A stretch of 64,000 bases of DNA from Pseudoxanthomonas sp. (GTDB lineage Bacteria; Pseudomonadota; Gammaproteobacteria; Xanthomonadales; Xanthomonadaceae): positions 1-64,000 of the forward strand of contig NZ_PKDG01000014.1 of NCBI RefSeq assembly GCF_002863005.1, given 5' to 3'. This document shows, one piece after another, positions 31,409 through 38,360 of the stretch. Each line of letters begins with the position of its first letter. The stretch's first letter is position 1. The notes beneath the pieces are model-generated. The model searched no databases and was not told the DNA's origin. It saw only the letters and a list, made by a program, of their open reading frames with translations. The translations under genes were made by a program, and so were the position numbers.

Positions 31409-33310
31409 ATGGCATACGAAGACGTCTATCGGCGCTCGATCGAGCAGCCCGAGGCCTTCTGGGGTGACGAGGCGAAGGCCATCCATTGGCACGTGCCGCC
31501 GCGGCAGGTGCTGGAGTACTCGCAGCCGCCGTTCCGTCGCTGGTTCGTCGGCGGCCAGACCAACCTCTGCTACAACGCGGTGGATCGCCATGTTGCCGAG
31601 CGCGGCGACCAACTGGCGCTGGTGGCGGTGTCCACCGAAACCGATGTGACCCGCGAAATCAGCTACCGAGAGCTGTACCGCGAAGTGAACGCCTTCGCCG
31701 CCGTGCTCAAGCGGCTCGATGTCGGCCGTGGCGATCGCGTGGTCATCTACATGCCGAACATGGCCGAAGCCGTGTTCGCGATGCTGGCCTGCGCGCGCAT
31801 AGGCGCCGTGCATTCGGTGGTGTTCGGCGGCTTCGCGGCGCACAACCTGGCCCTGCGCATCGACGATGCGCAACCGAAGCTGTTGATCGCCGCCGATGCG
31901 GGCAGCCGCGGCGGCAAGGTCATTCCCTACAAGCCGCTGGTCGACGAGGCGTGCGCGAAGGCGAACACGCCTCCGGCCAAGGTGCTGATCGTGTCGCGCG
32001 GCCTGGATGCGGCAGAGCCGAAGATCGCCGGCCGCGATGAGGACTACGCCACGTTGCGCGCCGCCGTCGGCGATGCCGAGGTGCCGGTCGAATGGCTGGA
32101 GTCGAACGAGCCCAGCTACCTGCTCTACACCTCCGGCACCACCGGCAAGCCGAAGGGCGTGCAACGCGATGTCGGCGGGTATGCGGTCGCCCTCGCGCTG
32201 TCCATGCGCACGGTGTTCGACGTGGGGCCGGGGCAGGTGATGTTCTCCACATCCGATGTCGGTTGGGCGGTGGGGCATTCCTACAACGTGTATGGCCCGC
32301 TGATCGTGGGCGCGACTTCGGTGCTCTACGAAGGGCTGCCGATCACGCCCGACGCCGGCATCTGGTGGGCGCTGTGCGAGCAATACGGCGTGCGCACGAT
32401 GTTCTCCTCGCCGACCGCGGTGCGGGTGCTGAAGAAGCACGACATCGATTTCATCAAGCGCCACGACCTGTCCGAGCTGAAGTACCTGTTCCTCGCGGGC
32501 GAGCCGCTCGACGAGCCGACGGCGCACTGGATCACCGATGCGATCGGCAAGCCGGTGATCGACAACTACTGGCAGACCGAGACCGGGTGGCCCGCGCTGA
32601 CGCTGCTGCCGGGTCTGGACATGAAGCCCGTGCGGTTCGGTTCGCCCGGGTTCCCGAACCTCGGTTACAGGATGAAGGTGATCGACGAAAGCACTGGCGA
32701 GGAAGTCGGGCCTTGCAAGAAGGGTGTGCTGGTCATGCAGCCGCCGTTGCCGCCCGGGTGCATGACGACGATCTGGAACGACGACGCGCGCTTTCTCTCC
32801 AGCTACTTCAGCCACTTCAAGGAACTGCTGTACAGCTCGCTGGACTGGGCGATCCGCGACGAGGACGGCTATACCTTCATCCTCGGCCGCACCGACGACG
32901 TCATCAACGTCGCCGGCCATCGCCTGGGCACGCGCGAGATCGAGGAATCCGTGTCCGGCTTCCCTGCCGTGGCGGAGGCTGCCGTGATCGGGGTGGCCGA
33001 CGAACTGAAGGGGCAGGTGCCGGTGGTGTTCGCGACGCTACGCCAGGCCACCGACGAGCCGCATGAACGCGTGCAGGCCGCCGATGGCATGCGGCGCACG
33101 GTAGAGCAGAGCCTGGGCGCGGTCGCGCGGCCGGCGCGCGTCTACATCGTCAACGCATTGCCGAAGACGCGTTCGGGAAAGCTGCTGCGGCGCTCGCTGC
33201 AGGCGCTGGCGCAGGGTGCGGATCCCGGCGATCTCTCCACGCTGGACGATCCCAATGCGCTGGAGGAAGTGAGGCGCGCGCTGCAGCGCGGGCCCGAGGT
33301 CGGCAGCTGA
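31409..33310 (+). CDS. prpE: Propionate-CoA ligase
   Basis: A 633-residue acyl-CoA synthetase of the ANL superfamily that activates propionate (or acetate) to its CoA ester through an acyl-AMP. The AMP-binding loop YTSGTTGKPKGV, DNYWQTETGWPA and catalytic Lys591 in KTRSGKLLRRSL are intact. Length and the DNYWQTETGW signature fit PrpE as well as Acs; the nearby prpB and prpC favour PrpE. Propionyl-CoA would feed the methylcitrate synthase at 37215. It stops three bases before the convergent M14 gene. Confidence 0.85.
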   Translation: MAYEDVYRRSIEQPEAFWGDEAKAIHWHVPPRQVLEYSQPPFRRWFVGGQTNLCYNAVDRHVAERGDQLALVAVSTETDVTREISYRELYREVNAFAAVLKRLDVGRGDRVVIYMPNMAEAVFAMLACARIGAVHSVVFGGFAAHNLALRIDDAQPKLLIAADAGSRGGKVIPYKPLVDEACAKANTPPAKVLIVSRGLDAAEPKIAGRDEDYATLRAAVGDAEVPVEWLESNEPSYLLYTSGTTGKPKGVQRDVGGYAVALALSMRTVFDVGPGQVMFSTSDVGWAVGHSYNVYGPLIVGATSVLYEGLPITPDAGIWWALCEQYGVRTMFSSPTAVRVLKKHDIDFIKRHDLSELKYLFLAGEPLDEPTAHWITDAIGKPVIDNYWQTETGWPALTLLPGLDMKPVRFGSPGFPNLGYRMKVIDESTGEEVGPCKKGVLVMQPPLPPGCMTTIWNDDARFLSSYFSHFKELLYSSLDWAIRDEDGYTFILGRTDDVINVAGHRLGTREIEESVSGFPAVAEAAVIGVADELKGQVPVVFATLRQATDEPHERVQAADGMRRTVEQSLGAVARPARVYIVNALPKTRSGKLLRRSLQALAQGADPGDLSTLDDPNALEEVRRALQRGPEVGS

Positions 33311-33313
33311 CGG

Positions 33314-34768
33314 TCAGCGCGCCGGTGGCGCGGGTGTCGCCGGGTCCACACTTCCGTCGAGCGTCCACACTACGTCGCGGCCCAGCGGATCGCGGCTCAG
33401 CACGAAGCGCGCGCTGGCGCCCGGCGTGAGCGGCAGGGGCGAGCGCGGTTCGTCGTTGTCGCCGTCGTCGTTCGCTTCGATCACCGTGCGTTCGCCCTCA
33501 TGTCCCGGGATCGGCACGATGAACAGGTCGCGTGCGTCCAGGGTGCGGCGTGCCTTTTTGGTGCCGAGGTCGCCGATATCGGCGATGGCGCCGTCGGTTT
33601 CCATCAGCGGATTGCGGAAATTGACCAGCAGGTCGGCCTTTGTCGGCGGACGACCCGGCACCGACAGCGTGCCGCCACGCACCAGCAGATCGGGCCATAC
33701 ATCGCCGTTTTCCGGCAGCTCGCGGTATAGCGCAGGCGCTACGCCCACGTGGCTGCCGGTCGCGATGCTGTCCAGCGCGGCCACCAGGCCGAGGAAGTAG
33801 AGCTTGCGCAGGCGCTGCTTCTGCACGTCGCCCTCGATGCCGCCCGCTTCGATCAACACCGTGCTGGCGCCCCACTGCGTGGTGAGGTCGCCGAACGCGC
33901 GCGGGTCGAAGGTTTCGTCCCAGCGTGCGATATGGCCGGCCAGGTAGGGTTCCAACGCCGTGCGGATCACGCCGGCCACTTCGATGGCGCGCGTGCGCAC
34001 ATCGTTGACGTCGGCGGCGTGGTTGTAGGGCGGCGATAGCAACGCGATGGCGGTGCCGCGATCGGAATCGCCGGCGCGATAGCCGACGCGCTGGTCGTGC
34101 AGGTTGAAGCCGTACATCGGTTTCACCCGGTCGTACAACGCCTTCAGCGTGCGCGCTTCCGGCGTCGCCAGCATGCGCGCATCGCGGTTGAGGTCGATCC
34201 CCTGCACGTTGCGTCGCTGGAAGCGCGCAGCGCCGTCGGGATTGACGATGGGGAAGACATGCAGCGTGGTGTTCGCGCGCAGCTGCCTCACCAGCGGATG
34301 GTCGGGATGGTCGCCGAGAAAGCGGAACAGGTCCGCCAGCGCCATCGACGCCGTACTCTCGTCGCCATGCATCTGCGACCACAGCAGCACGGGGATCCTG
34401 CCTTCGCCCCAGCGCACATGGCGCAAGGGGCGGTCCTCGACGCTGCGGCCGATCTCTTCCACGTGGAAGCCGTGCGTACGCGCCAGCAACGGCGTGGCGA
34501 CCGACCACCAGTGTTCCGCGTTGAACGTGCGGTCCTCCAGGCCGGCGACGCGCAGTTCCGCGTCGTAGAGCGCATCGAGCCCCGATAGCCACGCCGGGGG
34601 TGGGGGTATCGCGGTCGGGGCCTGCGTCGACGCATCCGCACGTGGCATGTCGGTGTTCCGGGCGATGGTGGTGGGGATCATCATCGTCAGCAGCAGGCAC
34701 AGGGCTAGGGTGGGGCGCATCACGGCAGCAGCAGGAGCGGTCGCTTGCAGGGTCGGTGCATGCGTCAT
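33314..34768 (-). CDS. Exported M14 family zinc carboxypeptidase
   Basis: A 484-residue protein from ATG 34768; ATG 34720 (MRPTLALCLLLTMM) gives a tighter signal peptide, and neither has a good binding site. The zinc site is visible as His134 and Glu137 (QMHGDES) with His224 (NLHDQR), plus substrate-binding NPDG and GIDLNRD and a C-terminal IEAGG glutamate. It likely trims peptides or peptidoglycan stems in the periplasm. It starts 34 bp after the citrate synthase-fusion gene on the same strand, so the two may share a transcript. Confidence 0.82.
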   Translation of the reverse strand: MTHAPTLQATAPAAAVMRPTLALCLLLTMMIPTTIARNTDMPRADASTQAPTAIPPPPAWLSGLDALYDAELRVAGLEDRTFNAEHWWSVATPLLARTHGFHVEEIGRSVEDRPLRHVRWGEGRIPVLLWSQMHGDESTASMALADLFRFLGDHPDHPLVRQLRANTTLHVFPIVNPDGAARFQRRNVQGIDLNRDARMLATPEARTLKALYDRVKPMYGFNLHDQRVGYRAGDSDRGTAIALLSPPYNHAADVNDVRTRAIEVAGVIRTALEPYLAGHIARWDETFDPRAFGDLTTQWGASTVLIEAGGIEGDVQKQRLRKLYFLGLVAALDSIATGSHVGVAPALYRELPENGDVWPDLLVRGGTLSVPGRPPTKADLLVNFRNPLMETDGAIADIGDLGTKKARRTLDARDLFIVPIPGHEGERTVIEANDDGDNDEPRSPLPLTPGASARFVLSRDPLGRDVVWTLDGSVDPATPAPPAR

Positions 34769-34802
34769 CGATGTCAAATCCGTGCGGGGCAGCGCCACCG
34801 CG

Positions 34803-36029
34803 TCATGCCGACGGTGCCGATGGCGTGATGCCGGTGTAGCGCGCACGTGGACGGATCAGGCCGCCCATCGCCTGTTGTTCCAGCGCGTGCGCCAGCCAGC
34901 CGGCGAGGCGGCCCGCGGCGAACATCACCAGCGCGGGCGTCGCCGGCAGGCGGTTCAGGTGACAGATCGCCGCCAGCATGAAGTCGATGTTCGGGCGCAG
35001 GCCGCTGATGTCTTCGGTAGCGGCGATCAGCGTTTCCAGTGCGGCCATTTCGCGCTCGCCTGCGTGGCGTTCGCGAGCGCGCGCCAGCAGCTCGGCACCG
35101 CGCGGATCGCCCTGCGGATACAGCGCATGGCCGAAGCCCGGAAGATCATCGCCGCGCTGCCAGCGCTCGCTGATGAAGCGGCGCGCGTGGCCGGCGTCAC
35201 GGGCATCGGCGATGAGTGCGTACGCACGCGCCGTCGCGCCGCCATGGCGGGGCCCGGACAGCGCGGCGAGGCCGCTGCAGACGGTGGCGTGCAGATGCGC
35301 GCCGGTGGAGGCGACCACGCGCGCCGCGAAGGCCGAGACGTTCAATTCGTGGTCCGCGCAAACGATCAGCGCGGCACGCACGAGGTCGGCGAACCCGTCG
35401 TCGCCCGGATGCCAGGCCTGCGCGAGCACGCGATGCACCGGTGCGCCGGAAGGCGGCTGTGCGACCAGCAGGGCCGCGTTGTGGCGCAGCAGTCCGGCGG
35501 CGATCTCGTGGCGCACGCGGGGCGCCGAATTGAAGGAGTGGCGCACGTCCAGCGCCAGCAGCGGGATCGCCGCCATCGCGCGCTCCAGCGGCGGCAGCGC
35601 GACATCGGAGGCGAGCGGCGCGACCACCGCCGGCCACGGGGTCGACGAAGGCGCGGTGAACGGGTCCTCCTCGCCGCAGGCCCAGAGTTGCCGCGCGACG
35701 TCTTCCAGCGTGGCGCCGTCGTGGACCATGCCGATCGCCGACCGGCCCCGGTAGTAAGGGCCGTCCGGACGGATCAGGGAGATCTGCGTTTCCAGCACCG
35801 GCAGGCCCCGGTCCAGGCTTTGCGCGGCACCGCGCGCCGCGCCGCGCCCCACCTGCTTGCGCTGGGCCAGGCGCTCCACGTCCTGACGCAGGTAGAGGCG
35901 GCTGCGGTGGTCCTTGCCCGGTCGGGATTCCAGCAGGCCGCGGCTGACGTAGGCGTACAGCGTGGCCTGGCTGATGCCCAGCAGGCGGCAGGTGTCGCGG
36001 GCGGACAGAAGGTCGGTCGCGGAGGCCAT
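34803..36029 (-). CDS. Helix-turn-helix/citrate synthase fusion, probable prp regulator
   Basis: Residues 9-57 form an excisionase/MerR-like DNA-binding domain (ARDTCRLLGISQATLYAYV). Residues about 75-400 are a full citrate synthase domain. The three catalytic residues of the family appear intact: His227 (ADHELN), His301 (GFGHALY) and Asp349 (NIDF), with Arg393 of RPRARYTG. The ATG at 36029 gives 408 residues; an in-frame extension to 36170 would read through the operator region. It diverges from prpB across 146 bp. I infer that the citrate synthase fold senses propionyl-CoA, oxaloacetate or methylcitrate and controls prpBC. Residual enzyme activity is possible. Confidence 0.8.
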   Translation of the reverse strand: MASATDLLSARDTCRLLGISQATLYAYVSRGLLESRPGKDHRSRLYLRQDVERLAQRKQVGRGAARGAAQSLDRGLPVLETQISLIRPDGPYYRGRSAIGMVHDGATLEDVARQLWACGEEDPFTAPSSTPWPAVVAPLASDVALPPLERAMAAIPLLALDVRHSFNSAPRVRHEIAAGLLRHNAALLVAQPPSGAPVHRVLAQAWHPGDDGFADLVRAALIVCADHELNVSAFAARVVASTGAHLHATVCSGLAALSGPRHGGATARAYALIADARDAGHARRFISERWQRGDDLPGFGHALYPQGDPRGAELLARARERHAGEREMAALETLIAATEDISGLRPNIDFMLAAICHLNRLPATPALVMFAAGRLAGWLAHALEQQAMGGLIRPRARYTGITPSAPSA

Positions 36030-36038
36030 CGAGAAATA

Positions 36039-36065
36039 TTGATTCGTTCGATCAAGATTGATCAA
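36039..36065. promoter_or_regulatory. Tandem TTGAT/ATCAA palindromes, probable prp operator
   Basis: TTGAT (36039-36043), seven bases, ATCAA (36051-36055), then the perfect palindrome TTGATCAA (36058-36065). The last two also make GATCAA-ga-TTGATC (36050-36063). The sites start ten bases upstream of the fusion gene and 111-137 bases before prpB. They are the best candidates for the binding sites of the fusion regulator. Confidence 0.6.
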
Positions 36066-36175
36066 CCCTGAGGATGGTGCCAGATTTGCGTCCCGAAGAG
36101 GGGCGTACCCTTCACGCACCTCCGGCACCGGCCCCAGGCCGAGGCCGCTCGCTGACCGATGAGGAGTCACGTCGC

Positions 36176-37060
36176 ATGAGCACCCCGTCCGCAGGCGCGC
36201 AGTTCCGCGCCGCGCTCGCCGCCGAATCGCCGCTGCAGGTGATCGGCGCGATCAACGCCAACCACGCGCTGCTGGCCAAGCGCGCCGGCTACAAGGCGAT
36301 CTACCTGTCCGGCGGCGGCGTCGCCGCAGGGTCGCTGGGCCTGCCCGACCTGGGCATCAACTCGCTGGAAGACGTGCTGATCGACGTGCGCCGCATCACC
36401 GATGTCTGCGACTTGCCGCTGATGGTCGACATCGATACCGGCTTCGGCCCCAGCGCGTTCAACATCGAGCGCACGGTGAAGTCGCTGATCAAGGCCGGCG
36501 CCGCCGCATGCCACATCGAGGACCAGGTGGGCGCCAAGCGTTGCGGCCATCGCCCGGGCAAGGAAATCGTGTCGGCCGGCGAGATGGTCGATCGCGTGAA
36601 GGCGGCGGCCGATGCGAAGACCGATCCGGACTTCTTCCTGATCGCGCGCACCGACGCCATCCAGGTCGAAGGCGTGGACGCCGCCATCGAGCGCGCCATC
36701 GCCTGCGTCGAGGCCGGCGCCGACGGCATCTTCGCCGAGGCCGCCTACGACCTGCCCACCTACCAGCGCTTCGTCGATGCCGTGAAAGTGCCGGTGCTGG
36801 CCAACATCACCGAGTTCGGCAAGACGCCGCTGTTCACCCGCGACGAACTGGCCTCGGTCGGCGTGGCGATCCAGCTGTATCCGCTGTCGGCGTTCCGCGC
36901 GATGAACAAGGCGGCGGAGAACGTGTACGAAGCGATCCGCCGCGACGGCCACCAGAAGAACGTGGTCGACAGCATGCAGACGCGCGAGGAGCTGTACGAC
37001 CGCATCGGTTACCACGCTTTCGAGCAGAAGCTCGACACCCTGTTTTCCGCAAAGAAGTAA
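36176..37060 (+). CDS. prpB: 2-methylisocitrate lyase
   Basis: A 294-residue member of the isocitrate lyase/PEP mutase family (296 in E. coli PrpB), cleaving 2-methylisocitrate to pyruvate and succinate in the cytoplasm. [16 protein letters not shown], the metal-binding DIDTGFG (85-91) and catalytic Cys123 in [10 protein letters not shown] are present. GAGGAG (36161-36166) supports ATG 36176. prpC follows after a repeat-filled gap. Confidence 0.96.
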
Positions 37061-37214: not shown

Positions 37215-38360
37215 ATGTCAGAGAGCGTCCCCTTCAAGCCGAAGAAATCCGTCGCCCTGTCCGGCACCGCCGCCGGCAACACCGCGCTGTGCACCGTCGG
37301 CCGCAGCGGCAACGATCTGCATTACCGCGGTTACGACATCCTCGATATCGCGACGACCAGCGAGTTCGAGGAAGTCGCCTACCTGCTGGTGCACGGTAAG
37401 CTGCCCAACCGCGCCGAGCTGGCCGCCTACAAGGCGAAGCTGAAGTCGCTGCGCGGCATCCCGGCCGCGGTGAAGGCCGCGCTGGAAGAGCTGCCGCCGT
37501 CCGCGCACCCGATGGACGTGATGCGCACTGGCGTGTCGATCCTCGGCTGCGTATCGCCGGAGAAGGACGACCATAACCATCCCGGCGCGCGCGACATCGC
37601 CGACAAGCTGATGGCCTCGCTGGGCTCGATGCTGCTGTACTGGTACCACTGGAGCCACAACGGCCGCGCGATCGACGTGGAGACCGACGACGACTCCATC
37701 GGTGGCCATTTCCTGCACCTGCTGCACGGCGAGAAGCCGCGCGAGTCCTGGGTGCGCGCGATGCACACCTCGCTGATCCTGTACGCCGAGCACGAGTTCA
37801 ATGCCTCCACCTTCACCTGCCGCGTCATCGCCGGCACCGGCAGCGACATGCATTCCTGCATCGCGGGTGGCATCGGTGCGCTGCGCGGCCCGAAGCATGG
37901 CGGAGCGAACGAAGTGGCCTTCGAAGTGCAGAAACGCTACGAATCGCCCGACGAAGCGGAAGCCGACATCAAGGCGCGCGTCGAGCGCAAGGAAGTCGTG
38001 ATCGGCTTCGGCCATCCGGTGTACACCACCGGCGATCCGCGCAACGACGTCATCAAGCAGGTGGCGAAGGATCTGTCCGCCGAGCAGTCGAGCATGAAGA
38101 TGTACGACATCGCCGAGCGTCTGGAATCGGTGATGTGGGACATCAAGAAGATGTTTCCGAACCTCGATTGGTTCAGCGCGGTCAGCTACCACATGATGGG
38201 CGTGCCGACGGCGATGTTCACCCCGCTGTTCGTGATCGCCCGCACCAGCGGCTGGAGCGCGCACGTGATCGAGCAGCGCATCGACGGCAAGATCATCCGC
38301 CCGAGCGCCAATTACACGGGGCCTGAGGATCTGGCCTTCGTGCCGATCGACCAGCGCTGA
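37215..38360 (+). CDS. prpC: 2-methylcitrate synthase
   Basis: A 381-residue citrate synthase-family enzyme that condenses propionyl-CoA with oxaloacetate. The catalytic residues are in [22 protein letters not shown] and NLDWFSA; the C-terminal [11 protein letters not shown] arginine is present. [20 protein letters not shown] is typical of PrpC rather than GltA. GAGGA at 37203-37207 fixes ATG 37215. No methylcitrate dehydratase (prpD or acnD/prpF) follows within the window. Confidence 0.95.

Follow-up and report, generated by a model that had tools for sequence, protein, structure and literature searches.

In regulators of the MocR/GabR type an aminotransferase fold is joined to a winged helix, and no regulator that uses citrate synthase in this way is known to us. 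A search of the open literature, which took in few subscription papers, found no description of a DNA-binding citrate synthase regulator, and a citrate synthase-like protein of Streptomyces is mentioned, not as a regulator, in the accessible parts of two papers (PMC9739823, PMC7324645). As far as the available portions of the sources go, the Fis-type PrpR is an activator in Salmonella (PMC12153269, PMC9765439), the PrpR of Xanthomonas citri represses prpB (PMC12153269), and the GntR-type PrpR of Pseudomonas aeruginosa represses the methylcitrate operon through a palindromic site (PMC9765439). A Fis-family PrpR is stated to occur in all Xanthomonadales analysed in a 2012 comparative study (J Bacteriol 194:3234, as summarised in the part of PMC9765439 available).

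The locus considered here lies in a window of 64,000 nucleotides from Pseudoxanthomonas sp. (assembly GCF_002863005.1, contig NZ_PKDG01000014.1, positions 1 to 64,000), in which a gene encoding a helix-turn-helix (HTH)-citrate synthase fusion faces the propionate genes (Table 1). Like the Fis/sigma-54 PrpR (TIGR02329), which was divergent from prpB in the loci read, the fusion would be a local regulator adjoining prpB; the two are unrelated proteins, however, and the PrpR genes are accompanied by a sigma-54-like element in five loci read, not by the fusion's operator. The PrpR of P. aeruginosa resembles the proposed role of the fusion in repressing the methylcitrate genes from a palindromic site, but it is a GntR/FCD protein with the site ATTGTCGACAAT according to the accessible text (PMC9765439).

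Table 1. Features of the fusion locus in the window
Feature	Position	Strand	Basis
HTH-citrate synthase fusion gene	34803..36029	-	ORF and translation, 408 aa plus stop
HTH_17 DNA-binding domain, residues 7-58	35856..36011	-	Pfam, 34.6 bits vs cut-off 27
Citrate_synt domain, residues 74-395	34845..35810	-	Pfam, 201.8 bits vs cut-off 27
His262 (GPRHGG)	35244-35246	-	Pfam domain and alignment
His301	35127-35129	-	Pfam domain and alignment
Asp349	34983-34985	-	Pfam domain and alignment
Arg393	34851-34853	-	Pfam domain and alignment
Proposed operator TTGAT-N7-ATCAAGATTGATCAA	36039..36065	+	Conservation, co-occurrence with the fusion
Presumed -35 of prpB, TTGATC, within the operator	36058..36063	+	Deduced from fixed spacing
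Presumed extended -10 of prpB, TGC-CAGATT	36081..36086	+	17 nt past the -35; deduced from fixed distance
prpB, methylisocitrate lyase, proposed target	36176-37060	+	TIGR02317 and PRK11320 above cut-off; start placed by aligning relatives
prpC, 2-methylcitrate synthase, proposed target, same direction as prpB	about 37215-38360	+	PRK12351, 723.8 bits vs 550
prpE	31409-33310		Beyond an M14 peptidase gene (- strand) as seen from the fusion

Results

Domains of the fusion protein

The fusion carries a DNA-binding and an effector domain within one chain, and the Pfam matches to HTH_17 and Citrate_synt bear out what had been read from the sequence alone, namely an HTH joined to a full citrate synthase domain. 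For the N-terminal HTH, the Pfam score for MerR_1 was barely above the cut-off (22.1 vs 21.6) and that for MerR below it (18.9 vs 28.2). Residues L17, T23, Y25, A26, S29, R30 and Y46 of the HTH are invariant in 135 aligned fusions, recognition-helix residues among them. The citrate synthase half reaches none of the enzyme cut-offs of the 22 NCBIfam models listed, the best score being that of PRK12350 (159.4 bits vs 332), with TIGR01800 at 141.5 vs 421.3 and PRK12351 at 127.4 vs 550; because it lies above the Pfam domain cut-off and below every one of these enzyme cut-offs, we regard it as diverged. Its nearest solved chains by sequence include 8glb and 6wgy (citrate synthase 2; E 1e-35, residues 210-407), which we take to be the citrate synthase 2 of the Mycobacterium tuberculosis type; they have 379-380 residues and no aligned HTH, whereas the fusion carries one, and their aligned segment has Glu at the position of Asp349. 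A chance join of the two domains is excluded by the 65 prp-linked fusion loci and by the presence of the fusion in 51 of 398 evenly drawn genomes of the phylum, both described below. The Rfam scan of the window returned no family at gathering score.

Linkage to the propionate genes

That the fusion gene is divergent from prpB and prpC, as the sequence-only reading had it, was confirmed, both genes scoring above curated cut-offs. In a first search among relatives, a full-length fusion was found in 25 of 41 genomes, and within the family of the host it is present in 44 of 198 genomes, with one copy (G414) split over two contig ends. A total of 65 loci from 65 genomes, with fusions 67-100% identical to that of the window, were examined; they comprise the window and 64 relatives (67-97%), include all 44 family genomes, and one of the relative loci ends at a contig edge. 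In 64 of the 65 loci prpB is divergent from the fusion gene, with 81-173 bp from start to start and 301 bp in a single case, while the fusion gene of the remaining one (L027, from another family) is divergent from acnD, which belongs to the same pathway (844 bits to TIGR02333, partial gene). The co-occurrence with prp genes that had been proposed as a check is therefore found in the relatives, although it holds within the clade of the host and not outside it, where relatives of the fusion adjoin other genes, so that the fusion design is not prp-specific. The 52 prp-linked fusion proteins placed in a tree group together on a single branch (SH-aLRT support 100, quick method), and the prp-linked counts come from related genomes of one clade and do not represent independent events.

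In five loci (L016, L017, L041, L047, L048) prpB is only about 65% identical to that of the window and the fusion is 76-77% identical; regulator and site thus stayed while the type of prpB differs, and the sequences indicate an exchange of the prpB type beside a retained regulator. A class-level protein search found the fusion in 3 of 274 genomes at E 1e-50, a limit stricter than the later profile that may undercount. The host assembly (G000) holds two citrate synthase family matches only, the fusion and prpC, and most close relatives have a third, GltA-like gene; a 5.3-kb stretch around that gene in one relative (G022) found no match in G000, and the third gene is absent either through an assembly gap or through true loss.

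A candidate operator at the prpB promoter

The intergenic region contains the motif TTGAT-N7-ATCAAGATTGATCAA, which was invariant in all 51 of the prpB-linked intergenic regions first fetched, the N7 bases varying. In the same 51 loci, T27, G28, A31, A33 and T35 of a TGnCAGATT-like block stand at a fixed distance from it. All 13 further family loci have TTGAT-N7-ATCAAGATTGATC followed by TGnCA(G/C)ATT at the fixed distance; in seven of them the operator ends in ATTGATCCG or ATTGATCGG (CG or GG replacing AA), and these are the seven genomes with two mismatches in the family operator search reported below. With up to three mismatches allowed, the operator is unique in the 3.96-Mb host assembly, and this single site excludes its occurrence by chance. 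The window holds four overlapping or weak matches to it, as against a mean of 0.23 in shuffled sequences, none of 100 shuffles having as many. In one relative (L059, genome G397), with the 301 bp between starts, two operator copies lie 218 bp apart. The half-sites TTGAT, ATCAA and ATTGA, to which most members of the prp clade add a fourth, suggest that more than one HTH pair may sit on the DNA.

A strict sigma-70 promoter scan of 35900-36250 reported no promoter, because CAGATT matches TATAAT in three of six positions. When a uniform -10 test was applied to the distant loci described below at spacers of 16-19, it was passed by 1 of 51 loci of the CitB-linked group and by 14 of 15 of the dehydrogenase group, 13 of them at spacer 18, and its strict rule excluded CAGATT in all 51 prp loci. 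Regulators of the MerR type have their operator between -35 and -10 elements that are 19-20 nt apart. For the fusion such action is rejected, because in all 51 loci the presumed spacer is 17 nt and the presumed -35 is covered by the operator.

Operator, fusion and PrpR across the host family

The family operator search (up to two mismatches) returned the same 44 of 198 genomes as the fusion and none of the other 154, and the reversed-pattern control was absent from all 198. Fisher's test gives p 4e-45 for this coincidence, a value that overstates the evidence because the genomes are related; a better argument is that the fusion is scattered within genera, G024 and G498, for instance, lacking both fusion and operator. 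That the operator might be a mark of any prpB promoter is excluded by its absence from every one of the 154 family genomes that lack the fusion.

A sigma-54 PrpR (TIGR02329 above cut-off) occurs in 22 of the 198 family genomes, none of which is among the 44 with the fusion, a mutual exclusion that rests on this one family sample; the host genome has no TIGR02329 match at E 1e-100. By subtraction, 132 genomes have neither. Both states occur in one genus, where G205 carries the fusion and the remaining seven species sampled carry PrpR. Fourteen prpB upstream regions from loci without the fusion were read: five from PrpR genomes, five with a prpE-like gene upstream and four with other genes (L096, L099, L101, L108). 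By eye, the PrpR genomes (L097, L098, L102, L103, L105) show a sigma-54-like TGGCA(C/T)G-N4-TTGC near prpB, and the prpE-like gene precedes prpB, co-oriented with it, at 74-165 bp (L094, L095, L104, L106) or about 520 bp (L107). In the window (31409-34846), unlike in these last five loci, the fusion gene and the M14 peptidase gene separate prpE from prpB.

A wider family with one operator and varying neighbours

Beyond this clade the fusion is widespread. When plasmids were searched with the protein, 262 records matched, 86 of which reached a coverage of 80% or more, and among the matches listed 27 of 40 plasmid records are called 'citrate synthase family protein'. Species genomes, when scanned, yielded at least 569 candidate fusion loci. 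The best 80 of these and four plasmid loci formed a distant set of 84, of which 83 were usable. The distant relatives are 36-48% identical to the fusion, belong to alpha-, beta- and gammaproteobacteria, and retain the operator beside other targets. In 69 of the 83 loci a recognised gene is divergent within 200 bp, namely a CitB-type gene (51), a 2-hydroxyacid dehydrogenase (15) or a CoA-transferase (3); in the other 14 the neighbour is of another kind or was not assigned, and these include MFS transporters (L141), contigs that are too short (L113, L184) and loci where the first ORF upstream is co-oriented with the fusion (L126, L127, L181). In all 51 loci with the divergent CitB-type enzyme (L033, L034 and 49 of loci L130-L190), Glu replaces the catalytic Asp, in contrast with the CitB of Caulobacter, reported in the accessible part of the source as a working citrate synthase (PMC7083601).

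The pattern TTGATN7ATCAAKATTGA (up to two mismatches) lies near the fusion start in 77 of the 83 loci, and its reverse was not found in the 756 kb of the distant loci. The misses are L149, where the site is at -73 (start-codon choice), four Burkholderia loci, and L181, with none. In these Burkholderia loci (L127-L129, L169) the fusion gene has sites 2.7-2.9 kb upstream as well as in the flank, and L126 from Klebsiella spallanzanii has additional operator sites in the flank; the extra sites suggest small regulons that may extend beyond one divergent gene. In six distant whole genomes, eight of nine sites with at most one mismatch fall within the fusion locus by their coordinates.

An even draw of 398 genomes from the phylum contained the fusion in 51 (52 matches), the exact operator in 43 (44 sites) and both in 39, and 39 of the 44 exact sites lie no further than 150 bp from a fusion start; the reversed-pattern control occurred in one genome. 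The 12 fusion genomes without an exact site comprise five with one mismatch in the expected place, one with a weak four-mismatch site and six with none. Four exact sites without a detected fusion (G540:C9:18423, G737:C309:1701, G804:C1:113102, G867:C67:15323) may be chance occurrences or remnants. Among the 30 site-bearing loci of this sample whose neighbours were looked up, 28 adjoin a CitB-type citrate synthase and two a CoA-transferase.

The family probably includes a gene of a model organism. In the part of PMC7083601 that was available, CitB of Caulobacter crescentus complements an Escherichia coli gltA mutant and CitC (CCNA_03758) fails to do so; identities of 33 and 32 are given for CitC and of 30 and 30 for CitB, CitC is regarded as a paralogue that does not act as a citrate synthase in E. 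coli, citC was deleted jointly with citB in the published strain, and the term helix-turn-helix has no occurrence. The genome of C. vibrioides OR37 contains three genes of the citrate synthase family and no more. Its fusion, 32-33% identical to GltA and to a CitA-like protein (28-29% for the CitB-like neighbour), adjoins the CitB-like gene, and the intergenic region contains the operator. Since gene count, gene order and identities in OR37 are close to those published, we take CitC to be a fusion protein of this kind, and CitC of C. crescentus is thus probably a member of the family, linked to citB where the fusion of the window is linked to prp.

Conservation of the active site

Of the citrate synthase half, the sequence-only reading had listed His227, His301, Asp349 and Arg393 as catalytic positions, and all four are in place in the translation; the list left out His262 (GPRHGG), the third catalytic residue. 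We take the catalytic trio to be His262, His301 and Asp349, and His227 and Arg393 to be oxaloacetate binders. His262, His301, Asp349, Arg310, Arg374 and Arg393 are invariant in the first set of 135 aligned fusions, and His227 is retained in 130 of them.

In the phylum sample, the catalytic trio is retained in 43 of 44 fusions that have a site with at most one mismatch, counting one fusion per genome (30 newly aligned, 29 intact; nine more, all intact; and five from the first 135). The one exception, L218, has an exact operator, yet Asn replaces His301; in L214, His replaces Arg374. Conversely, none of the seven fusions without a good site, which represent about three lineages, has an intact trio: five from one genus are without all three catalytic residues, in G644 His301 is replaced by Gln, and in G147 His262 is replaced by Ile and Asp349 by Glu. 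The HTH is retained in all seven. L181, with an intact active site and no operator, is an exception in the direction opposite to L218. Operator and active site therefore tend to be retained or lost jointly, which argues that the enzyme pocket matters to regulation. In the genus of those five (g372; L243, L244, L246-L248) the HTH is retained and the three catalytic residues and the operator are gone, and at least in L243, L246 and L247 an undecaprenyl-diphosphatase-like gene, recognised by eye, comes after the fusion.

Discussion

The domain layout, the prp linkage, the site and its co-occurrence with the fusion, its position relative to promoter-like elements, the conserved active site and the exclusion of PrpR in one family sample were all established by computation, and the regulatory reading of the fusion is strongly supported at the level of sequence. 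With good confidence, we propose that the fusion is a one-component transcription factor with a citrate synthase effector domain, which would bind the lone operator and likely represses prpBC and itself until relieved by a ligand. The earlier suggestion that the enzyme fold itself is the sensor of a prp regulator gains support from the divergence of prpB or acnD, from an operator that in the host family is found only with the fusion, and from the exclusion of PrpR in its 198 genomes.

We infer that the fusion binds TTGAT-N7-ATCAAGATTGATCAA between its own gene and prpB. The last TTGATC is the presumed -35 and the fusion's own promoter must cross the site, and repression of prpBC and of the fusion gene itself is for that reason the likeliest sign of control. 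The citrate synthase domain, which is probably dimeric as in related proteins, would take up its ligand in the conserved active site, with oxaloacetate, an acyl-CoA such as propionyl-CoA, or the product 2-methylcitrate as candidates; the ligand-bound domain would change shape, so that the operator is released or its use altered, and the methylcitrate cycle would be made when propionyl-CoA is present. Relief of repression by ligands of the enzyme pocket is our own inference.

The overlap of the operator with the -35 also fits some activators, and a liganded fusion placed there could recruit polymerase to a weak -10, leaving prpBC off without the fusion. The presumed -10, CAGATT, is indeed poor, the -35 lies inside the operator, and the fusion stands in the place of a Fis-type PrpR, the activator of Salmonella in the available portions of the reports (PMC12153269, PMC9765439). 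However, the promoter of the fusion's own gene must overlap the operator, as in autorepressors, the same portions report repression by the PrpR of X. citri and by the GntR-type protein of Pseudomonas (PMC12153269, PMC9765439), and the extended TGn with a 17-nt spacer makes a MerR-like distortion needless, which counts against activation. We consider activation a secondary possibility, on the unlikely side.

The fusion may still condense acyl-CoA and oxaloacetate, as the sequence-only reading allowed. It could also be a working citrate or methylcitrate synthase that makes and senses 2-methylcitrate, its turnover or bound product setting DNA binding. Such a trigger enzyme would be in keeping with the catalytic trio and three arginines, which all 135 aligned fusions retain, and with the retention of Asp as catalytic base although the CitB-type neighbour has Glu in 51 of 51 loci. 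The failure of CitC, a probable member of the family, to complement E. coli gltA, which CitB does in the accessible part of that study (PMC7083601), speaks against it, and we hold continued catalysis as the basis of control to be unlikely.

Mixed oligomers with PrpC or CitB, which would tune enzyme activity and make DNA binding minor, are suggested by the commonest neighbour being of the citrate synthase family (CitB-type in 51 of 83 distant and 28 of 30 phylum loci, PrpC in the prp clade); other loci, however, adjoin a dehydrogenase, a CoA-transferase or a transporter with the operator mostly still present, and this explanation appears very improbable. It is scarcely credible that the operator serves some unlinked regulator and that the fusion is no more than an enzyme whose HTH is vestigial: although no fusion was detected in four of the 43 phylum genomes that have the site, site and fusion coincide in 44 of 44 vs 0 of 154 family genomes, the operator goes with the fusion to unrelated neighbours, and the HTH residues are invariant.

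Returning to the ligand-relieved repressor that we prefer, its extension to the whole family is more tentative. We would put at a little short of even the chance that HTH-citrate synthase fusions form a widespread class, arisen by the joining of a citrate synthase to an HTH, with one operator in alpha-, beta- and gammaproteobacteria and with varying targets, most frequently the neighbouring CitB or PrpC, in which the reaction itself is read out, binding of acyl-CoA and oxaloacetate in the intact active site, or the product made there, switching DNA binding, and in which active site and operator are lost jointly. The fusion is in any case common, with 51 of 398 phylum genomes and probably citC of Caulobacter. 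If the reading is true, many genes would receive a corrected annotation (candidate loci number at least 569), the way in which a lineage without sigma-54 PrpR may control propionate use would be explained, and parts for biosensors of acyl-CoA or tricarboxylate pools would become available. The prediction is clear and cheap to pursue, as it concerns one DNA site, one protein and a short list of ligands.

Among known systems, MocR/GabR regulators resemble the fusion in that a whole metabolic enzyme fold is the effector domain of a one-component regulator, and they differ from it in the enzyme fold, the HTH family and the operators. Enzyme-derived sensor domains are therefore known as such; to our knowledge, the citrate synthase fold in this role, a single operator shared across the phylum and the exchange of targets beside it are new.
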